Shown here one piece after another: positions 9,628 through 37,254 of a stretch of DNA of 61,617 bases (within the stretch, counting starts at the first letter, position 1; the number at the start of each line of letters is the position of its first letter). Both the position numbers and the translations under genes were made by a program. This stretch comes from Nitrospira sp. (lineage in GTDB: Bacteria > Nitrospirota > Nitrospiria > Nitrospirales > Nitrospiraceae), in contig JADYYH010000049.1 in assembly GCA_020853775.1 (NCBI GenBank), positions 1 through 61,617 on the forward strand, read 5' to 3'. Below the pieces are notes generated by a model, which worked only from the letters and a program-made list of their open reading frames with translations, did not search any database and had not been told where the DNA came from.

Positions 9628-10206
9628 ATGCACATCACACATCATTACGCCAGACTACGCAGCCTGTTTGCCGCTACGGCACTATGCCTCGGCCTGTCCG
9701 CTTGTGCTGGCATGAGTCCAACGGACACGTTGCCGACGGTCCCCTCCGTCGATCTCGCTCGATATGCCGGAACCTGGCAGGAGATCGCGCGCTTGCCGAT
9801 GTGGTTTCAACGGCATTGCGTGAACTCGACAGCCACTTACACCGTACGTGCGGATGGTGCCATCGGCGTGCACAATGCATGCACGACCGACACCGGAGGG
9901 CACGACGAAATCGACGGTGTGGCAACGGTGGTTGATCCCCGAACGAACGCCAGGCTGCGAGTCGTCTTTGATAACTTTTTTGCGCGGCTGTTCGGGTCCT
10001 CGCGCGAAGGCAACTATTGGATCCTGGCCCTCGACCCTGATTACCAGACGGTCATGGTAGGCACGCCCGACCGGCGGTATCTGTGGATACTCTCGCGCTC
10101 GCGCCAGCTCGGCGAGCCGACATACAACCGCCTGGTTGAGCAGGCAAGGCAGTTTGGATTTCCCGTTTCGGACCTGATTCTTTCTCACCAACCTCCCCCA
10201 TCATAA
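9628..10206 (+). CDS. blc: Bacterial lipocalin, outer-membrane lipoprotein
   Basis: A 192-residue lipoprotein of the Blc family, which binds lipids or other hydrophobic ligands in a beta-barrel cup. A signal peptide ends in the lipobox LSAC (Cys near residue 26). The first lipocalin motif is clear (RYAGTWQEIARLP), followed by the conserved NSTATYT strand, a RLRVVF strand, the YWILALDPDYQTVMVGTPD block and the final YLWILSRS motif. Length fits the family. It is monocistronic in appearance: the upstream operon runs the other way and no gene follows closely on the plus strand. Confidence 0.93.
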   Translation: MHITHHYARLRSLFAATALCLGLSACAGMSPTDTLPTVPSVDLARYAGTWQEIARLPMWFQRHCVNSTATYTVRADGAIGVHNACTTDTGGHDEIDGVATVVDPRTNARLRVVFDNFFARLFGSSREGNYWILALDPDYQTVMVGTPDRRYLWILSRSRQLGEPTYNRLVEQARQFGFPVSDLILSHQPPPS

Positions 10207-30430: not shown

Positions 30431-31030
30431 CTATGATTTTCGTGTATAGGTGATCTCCATGAACTTCATTTCCTTCCCATGCCCATGGGTCCCGTACATC
30501 TCAAACGTCTGTGAGTGCTGATCGATGATTTTCCACACCGCACGGTGATGCATCTGCCCTCCACCCGGTTCCGGATGTGACCCCTTCAAGGTAATCGTTT
30601 TACCGTCTGGACTGGCCGTGCCTTGCATGGTGAAAATGCCGGTTCCCATGCTATCCATCCAGGCCGTGACATATTTCTTGGTGAGATTGTCATACGCATC
30701 GATGCCGATTCCGGCAAAGGGTTGCCCCATCATGGTGCCGTTGAATTCCTGATAGAGAAATCGCCCGTCCAACAACATCTTCATGTCTGCCGTGCCGGTG
30801 GATTCGGACGGCGGCTTCCCCGGCTCCATCCATTCTTTGGTCTGAGTCGTCCAGCTACCGGCAAGACTGGCAAATAACTTGTGGGGCTCGCCCGGCATGG
30901 CCGCCTTCTTCCACACCTCCATCATGGCTTGAGGGTCCATGGCCTTTCCCGACTGCTTCTCCTTGGCAAAGACTGGCATGGTCATAATGACTGTGCAGAG
31001 ACAGGCAAGCATCAGTGATGTAGACCGCAT
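30431..31030 (-). CDS. DUF1579 family secreted protein
   Basis: A 199-residue protein with a signal peptide (LMLACLCTVIMTMPVFAKEK). The DUF1579 pattern is clear: LFASLAGSWTTQTKEWMEPG, then FLYQEFNGTMMGQPFAGIGI, YDNLTKKYVTAWMDSMGTGI and a final FEMYGTHGHGKEMKFMEITY strand. Proteins of this family have a lipocalin-like beta-barrel outline and no assigned function. It is at the downstream end of the ECF42/DGPF block, 119 bases after a DGPF gene on the same strand. DUF1579 genes are often found near DGPF and VOC genes, which supports a shared regulon, but no target promoter motif precedes it. Confidence 0.85.
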   Translation of the reverse strand: MRSTSLMLACLCTVIMTMPVFAKEKQSGKAMDPQAMMEVWKKAAMPGEPHKLFASLAGSWTTQTKEWMEPGKPPSESTGTADMKMLLDGRFLYQEFNGTMMGQPFAGIGIDAYDNLTKKYVTAWMDSMGTGIFTMQGTASPDGKTITLKGSHPEPGGGQMHHRAVWKIIDQHSQTFEMYGTHGHGKEMKFMEITYTRKS

Positions 31031-31149
31031 GGTGGCCTCCTATTATGGGTGAGGATGACGCCTTTCGATCTCATCGCGCCATCCGGTTGATCAGGGCTCT
31101 GCATGATGGTGCGCACCGTGGCTGAACGGCGCAGCCAACCTGAGTCTAG

Positions 31150-31632
31150 TCAAGCACGTGGCGATGGGCTGGTCAATGCACCGCCGTCCACGCCTGCGAC
31201 TGTCGTCGACTGCTTCTGGCCAACCTGCGCGCGCAGGCGATCCTCTTGCGCTCTCAGTTCCGGTGTGAATTCGGCGCCGAAGTCCTCCGCCTCGAAGACC
31301 TGGCGAATCTCAATCTCGGATTCGTCGGGCATCGGATTGGGACAACGTTTAACCCACTCGATCGCCTCTTCCTTCGACCGGCATTGCCATACCCAATATC
31401 CGGCAATCAGTTCCTTGGTCTCAGCAAAAGGGCCATCGATCACGGTGCGTCGAGTGCCTGAGAATCTGACGCGCGCGCCCTTGGTGCTCGGATGGAGTCC
31501 ATCGCCTGCGAGCATCACGCCGGCTTGGACGAGTTCCTCGTTGAACGTCCCCATTTCGCTCAATAACTGCTGGCTCGGCATGATACCAGCCTCCGACTCT
31601 TTGGTGGCCTTGATGATGATCATAAATCGCAT
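31150..31632 (-). CDS. DGPF/YCII-like protein A
   Basis: A 160-residue soluble protein with the DGPF motif (IDGPFAETKELIAGYW) and the YCII-type ferredoxin-like fold pattern: N-terminal strand MRFMIIIKATKESE, a helix, strand LHPSTKGARVRFSG and C-terminal RCPNPMPDESEIEIRQV. DGPF proteins accompany ECF42 sigma factors; their biochemical activity is unknown. This copy has a C-terminal extension after the core. It begins 13 bases after the VOC-A stop and belongs to the same transcription unit as VOC-A, behind promoter A. Confidence 0.88.
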   Translation of the reverse strand: MRFMIIIKATKESEAGIMPSQQLLSEMGTFNEELVQAGVMLAGDGLHPSTKGARVRFSGTRRTVIDGPFAETKELIAGYWVWQCRSKEEAIEWVKRCPNPMPDESEIEIRQVFEAEDFGAEFTPELRAQEDRLRAQVGQKQSTTVAGVDGGALTSPSPRA

Positions 31633-31645
31633 GGTCCGGTACTCC

Positions 31646-32141
31646 TTATGTGCCTTCGTAGGCCTGCTTCAGGGTGTTGAGATCGGGTTTCGTCATCTGC
31701 AAGATCGCCGTCATAACCCGTTCGGATTTTTGTGGGTCCTTGTCACGCAACATCGCCTCCCACTCGGGAGAGACGATTTGCCACGACAACCCGTACTTAT
31801 CCTTGAGCCATCCGCAGGGCCCCGGTTCTCCCCCGTCCCGAGTGAGTCCCTCCCACAGGTCGTCAATTTCCTTTTGCGTCCGGCATTTCACCATGAAGGA
31901 GACCGCTTCAGTAAATTTGAAAATCGGCCCGTCGTTCAATGCGACATATTCCTGCCCGTCGATCTCAAAGGTCACGGTCATGACCGAGCCTTTGGGTCGT
32001 CCCGCAGCCTGCGCCCCGGCCTCTCCATAACGGGTGATGGGCCCCATCTTTGAATGCGTAAAGATTGACACGTAAAACCGTGCCGCCTCCTCGGCCTGAT
32101 GATCAAACCAGAGGCAGGGAGTGATGGTGTGCCTGGTGCAT
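31646..32141 (-). pseudogene. VOC-family (PhnB/3-demethylubiquinone methyltransferase-like) protein A with a 5' frameshift
   Basis: The body is a VOC-fold protein of the PhnB-like group (LNDGPIFKFTEAVSFMVKCR, GWLKDKYGLSWQIVSPEW). The expected N-terminus ITPCLWFDHQAEEAARFY is encoded at about 32118-32068 in the same frame but has no start codon: TAA lies just upstream. The only ATG with a ribosome-binding site (AAAAGGAG, ATG at 32141) is in another frame and stops at 32103-32105 after 12 codons. A single extra base near 32130-32139 would explain this. A GTG at 32071 could give a shortened 141-residue product lacking the first strand. It is the first gene behind promoter A and precedes DGPF protein A. 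Confidence 0.75.
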
Positions 32142-32191
32142 GGCTCCTTTTATTGATCAGACGACGGTGTGCCTTCGTGCCTTCTGCTCAT

Positions 32192-32219
32192 TAGTCGAAC
32201 GCGCAGCAGAAAATCGACA
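32192..32219 (-). promoter_or_regulatory. Predicted ECF42-type promoter A
   Basis: On the minus strand, TGTCGA (32219-32214) is followed by 16 bases and CGACTA (32197-32192). ECF42 promoters are described as TGTCGA at -35 and a CGA-type -10. The -10 lies 50 bases before the VOC-A start codon. Promoter B at 35511-35538 has the same hexamers, the same 16-base spacing and the same TTTT after TGTCGA. Confidence 0.7.
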
Positions 32220-32262
32220 GGCCGATGACAGGACCGACCGCTGATCCGTCGATGATCCGCGA

Positions 32263-32628
32263 TTAGACCTCCGGCAAGCCGTCAACCTCACGAACCAGCC
32301 GAACTTCCACCGTGCCGATACGTGCGCCGGGAATCCGTGCCGCAATGCCGATGGCGTCCTGAAGATCGCATGCCTCGACCAGAAAATACCCGGCCGTCTG
32401 CTCACGTGTCTCCGCGAAAGGACCATCGGTCACGATCGCCCTTCCCTCGCGGACCTGCACCCGCGCCGCTGTCGAAGTCGGATGCAACGGCGACGCACTC
32501 ACATATTGTCCTTTGGCATGGAGTTGATGCGTCAGCTGCACGGATTCAGCCAGCATCTCCCGCCTCGTGGTTTCAGCCATCCTGGCGAACGCTTCTTCAC
32601 TATGATGCACCAGCAACAGATATTTCAT
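32263..32628 (-). CDS. DGPF/YCII-like protein C
   Basis: A 121-residue soluble protein of the DGPF group: start MKYLLLVHHSEEAFARM, conserved segment GQYVSASPLHPTSTAARVQV, motif TDGPFAETREQTAGYFLVEA and C-terminal IPGARIGTVEVRLVREVDGL. Its length matches the compact family members. It follows the MoaD-like gene on the same strand with a 34-base gap and ends 43 bases before promoter A. No TGTCGA-type motif precedes it directly, so it is probably transcribed with the BNR/MoaD genes. Confidence 0.88.
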   Translation of the reverse strand: MKYLLLVHHSEEAFARMAETTRREMLAESVQLTHQLHAKGQYVSASPLHPTSTAARVQVREGRAIVTDGPFAETREQTAGYFLVEACDLQDAIGIAARIPGARIGTVEVRLVREVDGLPEV

Positions 32629-32662
32629 GCGCGTGCCTCCACTGATCTGAGTCCAAGCGGGG

Positions 32663-32959
32663 CTACCCGCCGGCCATGGCCCCCACGATCAACAACGGCT
32701 CCTCGCCCCTCGCGACCGATTCGGGCAAGGGAACCTCCGGCGACTCGTGGGACACATCCTGCTCGCAGGCAAAGAACCGGATAAACGGCCGACGCCGTTT
32801 GGTCACATGGTCCCGAATCGTTCCTCGCAACACCGGATAACGCGCTTCCAACACATCGAGAACCGTCTGCTGCGTGACAGGCCCGATCACATCCAGCAAC
32901 ACTTCACCATCGACTTTCGCCAGCGTCCGCAGATGTTGAGGCAATATCACGCGCACCAT
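32663..32959 (-). CDS. MoaD/ThiS-like ubiquitin-fold protein
   Basis: A 98-residue beta-grasp protein. The pattern [20 protein letters not shown], then [33 protein letters not shown] and [10 protein letters not shown] matches a MoaD/ThiS-type family. The C-terminus ends in GAMAGG and so keeps the diglycine tail that is thiocarboxylated or adenylated in MoaD and ThiS. In many genomes a gene of this type sits next to a BNR-repeat gene, as it does here (33178-34359). No E1-like adenylation partner is in the window. Confidence 0.85.
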
Positions 32960-33072
32960 GCAGCACCTCCAGACGTCGCCGTACCTCGCTCAGTCACACG
33001 TTCAAGATGCAATGCGACAACCGCCAGGCTGCTCGACCGTCATTCTGACCCAACGAGCGCTCAACACGCTCC

Positions 33073-33154
33073 TCCAGCAAGGCCGCAGCCGACGGAAGCG
33101 CCGGAGGCGTAGCCCCAGGCCACGTTGAGGACGCCTCCGAGGCGAGAACGCCGC
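33073..33154. repeat. 82-bp intergenic repeat, copy 1
   Basis: The stretch starting TCCAGCAAGGCCGCAG and ending GAACGCCGC aligns end to end with copy 2 at 34536-34617, with the same length and no gaps, and shares TCCAGCAAGGCC, GAGGCGTA and GAACG-CGC blocks. The flanking arms (about 33055-33072 and 33155-33172) are imperfectly complementary, so the element can fold on itself. Copies 1 and 2 are in the same orientation and flank the BNR gene. Confidence 0.65.
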
Positions 33155-33177
33155 GGGAGGGTGTTTTCAACGCCTCG

Positions 33178-34359
33178 CTACAGGGTTTGGGCTTCGACGG
33201 ATAGCACCGCCGGCAAATCCCGCACAATCGGCGTCCAGCTATCTCCGCCGTCGGCCGACCCGTAGACCTGGCCGCCGGTCGTCCCGAAGTACAGGCCGCA
33301 GGGATCGAGTGAGTCGACGGACATCGCATCGCGCAGGATGTTCACGTAACAATTCTGTTGCGGCAGCCCCTTCGTCAGCGGTTCCCATTCATTACCGCCG
33401 CTGCGGCTGCGATAGACCCGCAGCTTTCCATCAGGCGGATAATGCTCGGAGTCGCTCTTGATCGGCACCACGTAGACGGTGTTCGGTTCGTGCGCATGCA
33501 CCGCAATCGGAAAGCCAAAATCCGTGGGTAAGTTCCCGCTGATTTCCTGCCAGGACTCTCCGCCGTCGTCGCTGCGCATCACATCCCAGTGTTTCTGCAT
33601 GAAAAGCACGTTCGGACGGGACGCATGCATGGTAATGCAATGCACGCAATGGCCGACCTCCGCATCGGGATCAGGCAGTTCAAACTGCGACTTCAGGCCA
33701 CGATTGGTCGGCCGCCAGGTCTTGCCGCCATCGTCGGTACGGAACACGCCTGCCGCGCTGATGGCAATGTGCATCCGTTGCGGGTTGGCCGGATCCTGCA
33801 CGATCGTATGCAAACACATCCCGCCGGCGCCCGGCTGCCACAACTTCCCCTTCGCATCTCGCAGGCCGGCGAGTTCGTGCCAGGTCCGTCCGCCATCCGT
33901 CGAACGAAAGAGCGCCGCGTCCTCCACGCCCGCGTACACCGTATCCGGATCGGTCAATGACGGTTCCAGGTGCCAGACCCGCTTGAACTCCCAGGGGCGT
34001 TGCGTGCCGTCATGATGTTGATGCGTGGTGAGCGGCTTCCCGGTTTTCACCGATTGGTCATAGGCGAACATGTTGCTCGCGCCGTTCGGCATACCATCCG
34101 CGCCCATGAGATCCTCGGGCTTCGTGCCCGGAGGATTCCAGGTCTTGCCGCCGTCATCCGAGCGCTGAATGACCTGCCCGAACCAACTGCTGGTTTGCGA
34201 CGCATAGATGCGGTTGGGATCGGCAGATGAACCCTTGAGGTGATACAGCTCCCACCCGCCGAAATGCGGGCCTGTCACGTCCCACCGTTTCCTGGTCCCG
34301 TCCGATGTCAGAATGAACGCCCCTTTCCTCGTGCCGACAAGTATCCGTACCCGGCTCAT
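33178..34359 (-). CDS. BNR/Asp-box repeat beta-propeller protein (sialidase-like fold)
   Basis: A 393-residue protein with repeated Asp-box motifs ([39 protein letters not shown]), the signature of a six- or seven-bladed propeller as in exo-sialidases and photosystem assembly-type factors. There is no signal peptide and no catalytic Arg triad that I can identify, so glycosidase activity is doubtful. It starts [20 protein letters not shown] at ATG 34359, with AAAGGAG upstream. It probably forms a pair with the MoaD-like gene downstream. Both intergenic sides carry a copy of the 82-bp repeat. Confidence 0.88.
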
Positions 34360-34535
34360 ACGTCACTCCTTTCTCGCCCATGACATGTTCGACCAAACCT
34401 GTCTCTGGTTTGTGGTTCCTTGACGTGTACGATGGAGGCCACCGCCCCCACCTACCGTCTCACGTCCAACGTTTCACGGTTCATCTTCATCACGTCACTA
34501 TAGTCTCCGCCGCAAGCGAGCGGTCAAAATGGCTG

Positions 34536-34617
34536 TCCAGCAAGGCCCCAGGGAATGACGCGAATGAGGCGTACCCACCGGGTACGTCGCAGTGAGCGTC
34601 GCGACTGAGAACGACGC
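34536..34617. repeat. 82-bp intergenic repeat, copy 2
   Basis: Same length and orientation as copy 1. The outer arms (AAAATGGCTG near 34527-34536 and CAGCCATTTT near 34621-34630) are exact reverse complements, and the core has a perfect GTACCC-ACC-GGGTAC hairpin. The whole forms a long palindromic element of MITE- or REP-like type. It ends at the DGPF-B stop codon. Confidence 0.7.
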
Positions 34618-34645
34618 TGGCAGCCATTTTCAGCGGTCGCTCGGG

Positions 34646-35002
34646 TCAAGCGCAGCCCTGCTCCTTCATGGACCGAACCTCCACACTCCCGATGCGAGCG
34701 GCAGGGAACTGAGCGGCGATGCGGATGGCATCGTTCAGATCCGGCACATCGAGCAGGAGAAAGCCGCCAAGTTGTTCTTTCGTTTCGGCAAACGGTCCGT
34801 CGATCGTCGATGTCTTCCCACCGCGAACCCTCACGGTGGTGGCCGTATCGACCGGGTGAAGCGGGGACGCCGTTACCAGCTGACCAAGCTTCTGCAGCCG
34901 GTCGCAATAGGCCATGGATTCGTCCGAGAGCCTGAGTCGCTCAGCGCTCGGCAGCGCATGCAGGATCTTTTCTTCGACATACACCAGACAAAGATATTTC
35001 AT
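34646..35002 (-). CDS. DGPF/YCII-like protein B
   Basis: A 118-residue soluble DGPF protein: MKYLCLVYVEEKILHAL, LVTASPLHPVDTATTVRVRG, motif IDGPFAETKEQLGGFLLLDV and FPAARIGSVEVRSMKEQGC. ATG 35002 follows a GAGGAACCC ribosome-binding site; the longer frame from 35086 runs into intergenic sequence. It follows VOC-B by 56 bases, and the two are probably co-transcribed from promoter B. Together with the A pair this gives two VOC-DGPF units of the same order under the same kind of promoter. Confidence 0.9.
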   Translation of the reverse strand: MKYLCLVYVEEKILHALPSAERLRLSDESMAYCDRLQKLGQLVTASPLHPVDTATTVRVRGGKTSTIDGPFAETKEQLGGFLLLDVPDLNDAIRIAAQFPAARIGSVEVRSMKEQGCA

Positions 35003-35058
35003 GATGGGTTCCTCGTATGATTCCACGCACCCGGACTTCATGCCCCGCGATCCACAAT

Positions 35059-35472
35059 CTACTGAGCCTTGGGATTCATCTCCCACAAGGCAAAGGTGTT
35101 GCTCTCCGTGTCCTGACAGACCACGAAATAGCCCATTCCCGGCACAGGTGTTTTGGATCTACAGACGGTCCCCCCGAGCTTCTGCACCTTGGCAGTCGCC
35201 TTATCAACGGACGGCACGGAAATATAGGCGGTAATCGGCTGGCGCGGCGCTTGGCGCGGCAGGAGTCCGCCATCCAGCGTCGCCTTCGCGCCGCCGGTAT
35301 CGATATGCCAGTAGTCCGGCATCGCGGGAAACCGGCTGATCTTCCACCCGAACAAGGCGCTGTAAAACTTCTTCGCTCGCGGCAGATCGTCGGCCGGAAT
35401 ATCGAACCAGACCAGACTCGCCGGGCACTCAGCGTTCTTCGTTTTCTTACCGGTTGAGGGACGCTTCGCCAT
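35059..35472 (-). CDS. VOC-family (glyoxalase-like) protein B
   Basis: A 137-residue protein with a double beta-alpha-beta-beta-beta VOC fold: SLVWFDIPADDLPRAKKFYS, ALFGWKISRFPAMPDYWHID, then a second half with TAYISVPSVDKATAKVQKLG and MGYFVVCQDTESNTFALWEM. This resembles the DUF-like glyoxalase/bleomycin-resistance proteins that are often annotated as lactoylglutathione lyase-related. Metal ligands cannot be assigned firmly. ATG 35472 has GGAGG upstream. Promoter B lies 39 bases before the start. Confidence 0.88.
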   Translation of the reverse strand: MAKRPSTGKKTKNAECPASLVWFDIPADDLPRAKKFYSALFGWKISRFPAMPDYWHIDTGGAKATLDGGLLPRQAPRQPITAYISVPSVDKATAKVQKLGGTVCRSKTPVPGMGYFVVCQDTESNTFALWEMNPKAQ

Positions 35473-35510
35473 CGGATCCTCCATTCAAATGAGTGGCTCG
35501 TGTCATGAGA

Positions 35511-35538
35511 TAGTCGTCGAGGGCAGGAAAAATCGACA
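35511..35538 (-). promoter_or_regulatory. Predicted ECF42-type promoter B
   Basis: On the minus strand, TGTCGA (35538-35533) followed by a 16-base spacer and CGACTA (35516-35511). Hexamers, spacing and the TTTT following the -35 are the same as in promoter A. It lies between the sigma factor gene and the VOC-B gene and reads into VOC-B and DGPF-B. Confidence 0.7.
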
Positions 35539-35613
35539 CACGTCCATGCAGCAGCAAAGATCGTGGGATATCAACCACTTAAAAAGCAGAGGGCAGCCGA
35601 CCGTCGAGTTGTC

Positions 35614-36870
35614 TCAGCCCAACTCCCTCAGTCGTCCCTCCAGGAACCGCCGCTCCGGCTCCTGCTGCGTGAGCACCAGCGCCCGTTCATATGAAGCTTT
35701 GGCTTCCGCGTTTCGTCCGAGTCGCCGGCAGAGGTCCGCCCGCGCGGAATGCGCCAGATGATAATTGGTGAGATCGCCACACAAGAGGATGGCATCGACC
35801 AGCGCAAGACCGGCCGATGGACCGTCACGCATTGCCACGGCGACAGCCCGATTCAGTTCCACCACCGGTGACGACTCAGCCTGCAGCAACACATCGTACA
35901 GGCCGACGATTTGAGCCCAGTCGGTCCTCGCTGCATCGGGTGCCTCCGCATGTACTGCAGCGATCGCCGCCTGGATGGTGTAGGGACCGACTTGAGGGGA
36001 CGCCAGCGCCCGTTCGACCAGGGCCGTTCCCTCCGCAATCTGATCTCGATTCCACAGAGCGCGATCCTGCTGCTCGAGGAGAACCAAATCTCCGGTCGGC
36101 GACGTCCGCGCGGCGCGCCGCGAGTCGTGCAGCAGCATCACCGCCAGGAGGCCCAGGGCTTCGGGCTCCGGCAACAACCCGATCAACAGCCGCCCCAAAC
36201 GAATCGCTTCCCCGGATAGATCGTGCCGCGTGAGCGACTCCCCCGACGAGGCGCTGTAGCCTTCGTTAAACACGAGGTAGATGACGCGCAACACGACATC
36301 CAACCGGTCCGGCAGATCGGTCGCCGATGGCACCTCGTACGGAATGCGGGCGTCGCGGATCTTGTTCTTCGCGCGGACGATGCGTTGAGCGATGGTAGCC
36401 GGCTTGGTGAGAAATGCGCGCGCAATTTCTTCGGTCGTCAGGCCGCACACTTCGCGAAGCGTCATGGCCATTTGTGCCTCCGGTGGAAGCGTGGGGTGGC
36501 AACTGGTAAAGATCAATCGCAGTCGGTCGTCGTCGAGAGACTCCTCTTCAAGTCGTTCCTCATCGAGGCTCGCGGTCGCGACTTCCAGCTGCCGGGTGAG
36601 TTCAGGCAATGAGGCGTCAAACCGTGCCCGCCTTCGCATGCCGTCGATCGCCTTGAAGCGCCCGGTCGAGACGAGCCAGGCCCGCGGATTGGCCGGTACT
36701 CCATCGCGCGCCCATTGCTCCACTGCGACGGCAAAGGCTTCATGCAACGCCTCTTCGGCCGCATCGAAGTCGCCGAGCAAGCGAATCAAGGTGGCGAGGA
36801 CCTGGCGGGATTGGGTGCGGTAGAGGTCGTCCACCAGCGCGCGCACCTGCTGAGACTGGTTCTCGCTCAC
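35614..36870 (-). CDS. ECF42-type RNA polymerase sigma factor with C-terminal TPR-like region
   Basis: A 418-residue sigma factor. Region 2 is in the N-terminus ([39 protein letters not shown]), and region 4 follows ([39 protein letters not shown]). The long C-terminal extension of about 230 residues is helical and rich in TPR-like pairs ([32 protein letters not shown]), characteristic of ECF42 proteins, which are encoded near DGPF proteins and need this region for activity. No anti-sigma factor gene is adjacent, also typical of ECF42. GTG 36870 with AGAAGGA upstream is preferred over GTG 36876. It lies directly upstream of promoter B and the DGPF/VOC genes. Confidence 0.93.
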
Positions 36871-36930
36871 GGACACAGTCCTTCTCGAGCGGGTAGACCT
36901 TGCCGCCTCCCGCACTCATGGGCTACCCCC

Positions 36931-37254
36931 TCAAATCCGGCCGAGTTGGGCCTTGGCCGCCGGACTCATCATGTCCGGCTTCCACGGCGGATCCCAGACC
37001 AAATCGACTTCCACGGAACGTGCCTCGGACAGCTCTCGCAAGATTGCCGAATGCACCATCTCCATCAGCAGCTCTTCCATCGGGCAAGCCGGCGTCGTCA
37101 TCGTCATCGTGACATGCACCTGGCCATCGCGCACCTCACCGCCATAGACCAACCCCAGGTCGACAATGTTGATCCCTAATTCGGGATCGACCACCTGACG
37201 CAGCGCGTCTATTACTCGCGGGTCTGATCCTGGGCCCTGTCTTTCTGTGGTCAT
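36931..37254 (-). CDS. DUF59/MIP18-family metal-sulfur cluster assembly factor
   Basis: A 107-residue protein of the SufT/PaaD/MIP18 group: VIDALRQVVDPELGINIVDL, GLVYGGEVRDGQVHVTMTMT, the conserved Cys motif TTPACPMEELL, and VEVDLVWDPPWKPDMMS at the end. Family members help load iron-sulfur clusters. The gene precedes the sigma factor by 60 bases and follows the NnrS-like gene by 49 bases, all on the minus strand. DUF59, NnrS and hemerythrin genes commonly form denitrification- or nitric-oxide-associated clusters. Confidence 0.9.
   Translation of the reverse strand: MTTERQGPGSDPRVIDALRQVVDPELGINIVDLGLVYGGEVRDGQVHVTMTMTTPACPMEELLMEMVHSAILRELSEARSVEVDLVWDPPWKPDMMSPAAKAQLGRI

Follow-up and report, generated by a model that had tools for sequence, protein, structure and literature searches.

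The locus examined here raises the question of whether one sigma factor directs two neighboring gene units through a pair of near-identical promoters. The DNA analyzed, referred to as the window, is a stretch of 61,617 nucleotides forming contig C49 of a 4,247,353-base, 121-contig Nitrospira genome. Its sigma factor appears to be of the ECF42 type (ECF, extracytoplasmic function), which is a large group of sigma factors. In the direction of transcription on the minus strand, the order is sigma factor, promoter 1, VOC, YCII, BNR, a 98-residue protein, YCII, promoter 2, VOC, YCII, and DUF1579. A sequence-only reading had claimed that the sigma factor drives both VOC-DGPF (YCII) units. We computed how rare the promoter motif is, how regularly it accompanies the sigma factor gene, and whether it precedes the same gene families across many genomes; judged from these sequence comparisons, the claim is well supported, and the ECF42 sigma factor very probably drives both units. 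The three elements on which the argument turns are as follows.

35614..36870, minus strand: ECF42-type sigma factor gene, 418 residues (Pfam)
35511..35538, minus strand: promoter 1, TGTCGATTTTTCCTGCCCTCGACGACTA (motif match; its end lies 26 bases before the VOC ATG)
32192..32219, minus strand: promoter 2, TGTCGATTTTCTGCTGCGCGTTCGACTA (motif match)

Promoter motif in the window and the genome

The window contained two matches to TGTCGATTTT-N12-CGACTA, both on the minus strand, at 32192-32219 and 35511-35538, and 100 dinucleotide shuffles contained none. The positions, strand, and spacing given by the sequence-only reading were exact at both sites, with 16 bases from TGTCGA to CGACTA. The two promoters had also been called identical, which is true of their cores but not of their spacer letters. 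When TGTCGATTT-N13-CGACTA was searched with up to 3 mismatches, the same two sites were the only ones in the window (shuffle mean 1.2, because 3 mismatches make the search loose). Between 30000 and 38500, no sigma-70-type promoter was found (2.2 in shuffles), and terminator-like sites numbered 8 versus 4.9 in shuffles, an uninformative count, with one of the sites just before promoter 2.

The 4.2 Mb genome likewise held 2 exact motif sites, and four further listed sites carried 2 mismatches. No third exact site with a 16- or 17-base spacer was found genome-wide, and no other match with spacers of 15-18 bases carried TGTCGATTT. A larger regulon in this genome was rejected for lack of such a third exact site, and by sequence the regulon here seems to consist of just these two promoters. 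A genome-wide check of TGTCGA-N16-CGAC, which had been suggested, gave 21 strand matches versus 5 for the reversed pattern, with the full motif exact only twice; however, most of the 21 fell inside open reading frames (ORFs), so the loose form alone says little. Specificity therefore lies in TGTCGATTT and CGACTA together.

Co-occurrence of the motif and the sigma factor gene

Co-occurrence was analyzed in a sample of 197 related genomes, 93 with and 104 without DUF6596, a domain of the sigma factor. The 16-base form, TGTCGAWTT-N13-CGACTA, was present in 82/197 genomes: 77 had both motif and sigma factor, 16 the sigma factor only, 5 the motif only, and 99 neither, that is, 77/93 sigma-positive versus 5/104 sigma-negative genomes. 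The form with a 17-base spacer, TGTCGATTT-N14-CGACWA, occurred in 40 genomes. Accepting either spacer changed the four counts to 84, 9, 7, and 97, respectively (84/93 versus 7/104). Reversed-pattern controls were found in 1/197 and 0/197 genomes. Within single genera, the 16-base form was present in 16/17 sigma-positive versus 0/9 sigma-negative genomes, 7/11 versus 1/17, and 7/10 versus 0/10. Outside Nitrospirota, the spacer was mostly 17 bases.

Genes downstream of the motif

A sigma-centered map was built from 94 stretches minus one in which no sigma ORF was matched (L107), giving 93 stretches and 101 motif sites. A YCII, VOC, BNR, or DUF1579 gene lay within 400 bases downstream of 96/101 sites; the first such gene was YCII at 55, one of the VOC types at 32 + 5, BNR at 3, and DUF1579 at 1, with none at 5. 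A further 63 sites, three of them shared with the 101, were chosen for their position beyond these stretches or at their margins. Their distance from the sigma gene varied widely: 26 were on another contig, 17 were separated from it by more than 20 kilobases (kb), 9 by 10-20 kb, and 4 by less, and 7 came from genomes in which no sigma gene was found. Here, 47/63 sites lay 40-350 bases upstream of a family gene (YCII 28, VOC 10, BNR 7, DUF1579 2), compared with 299/4000 random positions in the same stretches as a control. Ten of the remaining 16 led to AHSA1 (5), RibD_C (1), and DUF899 (4) genes by Pfam; the rest comprised one protein without a Pfam match, one with a weak TPR match, two sites without a clean frame (L224 and L238), and two genes outside the Pfam scan that are AHSA1-like in appearance (L216 and L237). 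The AHSA1, RibD_C, and DUF899 genes appear to be further ECF42 targets in relatives (L190, L212, L216, L220, L222, L233; L193, L200).

The sequence-only reading had also placed VOC in the regulon and called for the VOC-DGPF order to be compared across ECF42 loci. VOC genes do belong to the putative regulon, coming first behind the motif at 37/101 sites, but they are optional, and YCII came first at 55/101. Within 2.5 kb downstream, 52/101 sites had both YCII and VOC, 38 YCII only, 5 VOC only, and 6 neither. The arrangement around the sigma gene also differed among genera. In the genus of the window, the sigma gene lies upstream of the units without a motif in front of it. Other genera commonly show the order motif-(VOC)-YCII-sigma (e.g., L097, L106, L110, and L116), so the sigma gene there would belong to its own regulon and feed back on itself. 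Tandem motifs, two or three copies ~73-93 bases apart before one unit, were also observed (L192, L193, L200, L205, L065, L066, and L075). Across the phylum, a near-invariant promoter appears before a short repeating list of families: YCII, VOC, BNR with a ubiquitin-like partner, DUF1579, AHSA1, RibD_C, and DUF899. This gene list makes it testable which compound or damage is handled and whether the sigma factor senses it via a YCII protein.

These sites bear on a different explanation, namely that a DNA-binding repressor or activator uses the motif as its operator, the sigma gene being merely a frequent neighbor. TGTCGA and TCGAC nearly mirror each other, a number of sites are almost palindromic, and in L131, L132, and L135 the motif matched on both strands at one place. 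However, the two sides extend differently (TGTCGATTT versus CGACTA(T/A)), and the base before CGAC was A at 80/101 sites and T at 15/101; this breaks the dyad symmetry that a dimeric repressor would be expected to show, and a dyad operator was rejected as the leading explanation because of the asymmetry. Moreover, the spacing is fixed at 16-17 bases, the presence of the motif tracks the sigma gene genome by genome, some sites are far from that gene, and the ten Pfam-scanned neighboring proteins included no regulator besides the sigma factor. We consider an operator improbable.

The sigma factor and known ECF42 systems

Pfam analysis of the sigma factor matched DUF6596 (8.9e-37, residues 189-288), Sigma70_r4_2 (2.2e-11), and Sigma70_r2 (1.8e-8). 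Regions 2 and 4 were thus matched without an r3 match, which is the ECF make-up. The C-terminal DUF6596/TPR-like extension (~200 residues in ECF42) was present, with a weak TPR_2 match at residues 372-400 (7.2e-6, 26.2 bits versus a cut-off of 27), and the ORF could be extended to 36915 using a GTG start. The sigma factor is the single DUF6596 match in its own genome. Three YCII/DGPF genes lie near the sigma gene in the window, as such genes also do in relatives, and a Pfam scan of the ten proteins at 30431-37254 found no anti-sigma gene. The statements that an ECF42-type factor with a TPR-like extension adjoins the units and that no anti-sigma gene is nearby were both borne out, the latter within these ten proteins. 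Domain make-up, YCII neighbors, and promoter type support the assignment to ECF42. Among plasmid matches, many plasmids of Klebsiella, E. coli, Salmonella, and Acinetobacter carried a DUF6596 fragment matching only sigma residues 244-385.

The promoter letters in Streptomyces venezuelae and Pseudomonas putida ECF42 studies are reportedly TGTCGA and CGA/TC. The window promoters match this type, TGTCGA / CGA(T)C. Mapped starts, which lie downstream of TGTCGG...CGTC motifs, come from Sinorhizobium meliloti, in which the ECF42 factor RpoE10 induces two glyoxylase-domain genes within a small regulon (PMC6180224). This kind of control is therefore known already, as are VOC-type targets. RpoE10 resembles the factor studied here in that it is a TPR-extended ECF sigma factor beside a YCII gene, with glyoxylase-domain targets and no anti-sigma factor found (PMC6180224). 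In contrast, the S. meliloti motif is TGTCGG/CGTC, which was also seen in strain Ak57, and the text consulted lists an SRPBCC-type gene among the induced companions and mentions no BNR/ubiquitin-like gene (PMC6180224). According to a review that covers ECF42 of S. venezuelae and ECF-10 of P. putida, such factors similarly need their TPR extension for activity, lack an anti-sigma factor, and have a YCII neighbor that is the suspected partner (PMC8999054).

A comparable locus was observed on a plasmid of the cyanobacterium Gloeocapsopsis dulcis (NZ_CP119970), with the order sigma, YciI, VOC, and YciI, and with TGTCGATC-N15-CGACTA between sigma and YciI; however, its spacer is 17 bases, and no BNR/ubiquitin-like gene is annotated in the 13 kb seen. 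Five of the six named plasmid loci had such a motif (S. meliloti as TGTCGG/CGTC), and none preceded the YciI gene of the Streptomyces NBC_01592 plasmid locus (L334).

Layout of the two units

The remaining features of the two units were as follows.

35059..35484, minus strand: VOC (glyoxalase-superfamily) gene of unit 1 (Pfam PF22677 2.3e-10, PF00903 9e-8)
34646..35002, minus strand: YCII/DGPF gene of unit 1, 118 residues (Pfam YCII 5.1e-23; solved relative 1s7i, PA1349, 7.5e-34)
34512..34648, no strand: dispersed palindromic repeat copy in the YCII-BNR gap (27 own-genome matches including itself; long hairpin)
33178..34359, minus strand: BNR beta-propeller protein, 393 residues (Pfam Sortilin-Vps10 4.1e-14, BNR 4.9e-13; 3b7f 4.6e-80 by family profile)
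33040..33176, no strand: second copy of the same repeat family, in the gap between BNR and the ubiquitin-like gene (33 own-genome matches including itself)
32663..32959, minus strand: 98-residue predicted ubiquitin-fold protein (P98), C-terminal GAMAGG, SAMP1/CysO/MoaD/ThiS-like (AlphaFold2 and structure comparison)
32263..32628, minus strand: second YCII/DGPF gene, 121 residues (Pfam YCII 1e-17)
31646..32071, minus strand: unit-2 VOC gene of the PF06983 type (Pfam 6.2e-33; profile match begins at position 22)
31150..31632, minus strand: third YCII/DGPF gene, unit 2 (Pfam YCII 1.2e-19)
30431..31030, minus strand: DUF1579 gene, probably the last of unit 2 (Pfam 4.2e-52; same place in relatives)

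Pfam upheld the VOC (PF00903/PF22677 and PF06983), YCII (PF03795), and sigma gene identities. Both VOC-DGPF pairs are present as described, but the YCII genes number three, not two; this third gene, together with the DUF1579, BNR, and ubiquitin-like genes, had been overlooked. The gaps on both sides of BNR are filled by one dispersed palindromic repeat family of ~110-130 bases with a strong predicted hairpin. Many of the 27 and 33 genome-wide matches of its two copies fall at the same places, and the copy at 34512-34648, as searched, runs slightly into the 3' end of the YCII gene. For expression of the BNR and P98 genes, read-through from promoter 1 and a promoter of another type both remain candidates.

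At the position of the ATG in the relative L074, the VOC frame of unit 2 has no start codon; a GTG at 32071, ~20 codons further in, is the first start it could use, and the nearby ATG that does have a good ribosome-binding site (32071-32141) sits in another frame. Hence, in this assembly, the gene probably lacks a good start codon and the first strand. This raises a second alternative, that the sigma factor drives unit 1 only and promoter 2 is a decayed remnant beside a damaged VOC gene. Besides the start codon that is missing relative to L074, the relative L059 has no VOC there, and the motif stands directly before YCII. However, promoter 2 is intact, L074 has the same order with an equally intact promoter, and YCII and DUF1579 follow promoter 2 anyway; a remnant is accordingly as improbable, in our judgment, as an operator. 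The abundance of TGTCGA-N16-CGAC (21 strand matches) could speak for a chance resemblance between two stretches of a GC-rich genome; this explanation has a negligible probability and is refuted by the absence of the full motif from 100 shuffles, its conserved position in relatives, and its co-occurrence with the sigma gene.

Proposed control by the ECF42 sigma factor

We propose that the ECF42 sigma factor with RNA polymerase would start transcription at the two near-identical promoters (TGTCGATTTT, 12 bases, and CGACTA). Transcription of unit 1 would cover VOC-YCII and probably continue across BNR, the ubiquitin-like gene, and the second YCII; unit 2 would comprise VOC-YCII-DUF1579. The signal would be received by the TPR-like C-terminal part, not by an anti-sigma factor, perhaps through a YCII protein, as proposed previously (PMC8999054). 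Sigma binding to the motif, the transcript extents, and this receipt of the signal are inferred. On the basis of literature and neighborhood, we suggest only tentatively that the TPR part mediates activation in partnership with a YCII protein, and the VOC and YCII proteins may act jointly.

Several observations weigh against control of both units by the sigma factor. Fisher p-values for co-occurrence, down to 3.5e-36, are overstated because relatives are not independent. Moreover, 9/93 sigma-positive genomes showed neither spacer form, and 7/104 sigma-negative genomes showed the motif. All seven motif-only genomes are drafts, 66-92% complete. Among the nine sigma-only genomes, four have the sigma gene on contigs of less than 8 kb (L068, L104, L123, and L137), one has a CGACAA variant (L103), and others have divergent sigma factors (L140, L146, and L149; 50, 44, and 33% identical to that of the window). 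VOC was absent near many sites (the 38/101 with YCII but without VOC within 2.5 kb), and 2 of the 5 YCII genes of the genome lie elsewhere without the motif. Because unit 1 contains two dispersed repeats, read-through into BNR and the genes after it is uncertain. Finally, the start of the unit-2 VOC may reflect a GTG start, an assembly error, or a damaged gene, the last of which would also be unfavorable.

The BNR and ubiquitin-like protein pair

The AlphaFold2 model of P98 showed a ubiquitin (beta-grasp) fold with a predicted local distance difference test score (pLDDT) of 91.9. Its closest structures were SAMP1 (3po0; Z 12.8, root-mean-square deviation 1.8, 88 residues aligned), CysO (Z 12.0), MoaD-like proteins, and Urm1 (Z 9.9). 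As modeled, P98 would share the ubiquitin fold and Gly-Gly tail with SAMP1 (Haloferax), CysO (Mycobacterium and Amycolatopsis), MoaD, and Urm1; it differs in that identity is only ~20-26% and in that the neighbor of its gene encodes a propeller protein. P98 had no Pfam match of its own, a shorter relative matched ThiS (2.5e-11), and its profile reached SAMP1 among solved structures only at E 0.94, so the kinship rests on the fold and the shorter relatives.

Relatives of P98 were collected in a scan of 84,980 species, and the following counts refer to the best 80 loci of a longer list. BNR was in the stretch at 79 of these loci, a sigma factor of this kind at 20, YCII at 31, and the motif before one of the families at 38. 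The loci span Nitrospira, Acidobacteria, Actinomycetota, Chloroflexi, Gemmatimonadota, Planctomycetes, and others. The BNR and P98 genes often overlap start to stop (for example, P98 start at 10001 and BNR end at 10004), and BNR is unusually conserved, with a mean column identity of 77% over 34 sequences across phyla. The BNR fold prediction had a pLDDT of 78, and its solved relative 3b7f looks uncharacterized. An all-against-all comparison gave no new recurrent neighbors of the pair, its largest clusters being known families and their reverse-strand shadows. No E1, JAMM, or cysteine-synthase partner was recognized beside the P98 gene (no genome-wide E1 search was made), and plasmids gave no P98 match.

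For the upstream test, 71 of 75 BNR genes were entered and one without upstream sequence was skipped. An ECF42-type motif lay within 250 bases upstream of BNR at 14/70 loci, 11 of them outside Nitrospira, a count without a shuffled control. BNR was the first gene at 3/101 and 7/63 of the Nitrospirota sites. In the window, neither BNR nor P98 had a motif of its own with up to 3 mismatches, and the pair is tied to promoter 1 by position only. Genome counts for P98 used only matches above ~130 bits because a looser profile also finds a second ThiS/MoaD-like gene (181/197 genomes).

A ubiquitin-like member suggests sulfur transfer or protein tagging; neither these functions nor BNR and ubiquitin-like members were encountered in the ECF42 texts consulted. 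Literature searches, whose coverage excluded the primary ECF42 papers and the 2021 classification, likewise returned no paper that connects ECF42 with BNR or with a ubiquitin-like protein. A pair that recurs across phyla, sometimes directly behind an ECF42-type promoter, may be what is new here. It is conceivable yet doubtful that ECF42 factors, in Nitrospira as in other phyla, govern a stress-induced module for sulfur transfer or protein tagging, made of the Gly-Gly SAMP1/CysO-like protein and the propeller alongside YCII, VOC, and DUF1579. Counting against it, 14/85 genomes with the strong form of P98 had no DUF6596 sigma factor; therefore, the pair can exist without it.

The C-terminus was Gly-Gly in 54/55 P98-type ORFs of sigma loci, and the exception (L149) looks like an ordinary MoaD. 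Of 47 small proteins of this type, 44 had Gly-Gly at the very end, and three (L300, L302, and L316) carried two extra residues past it, resembling precursors that need trimming.

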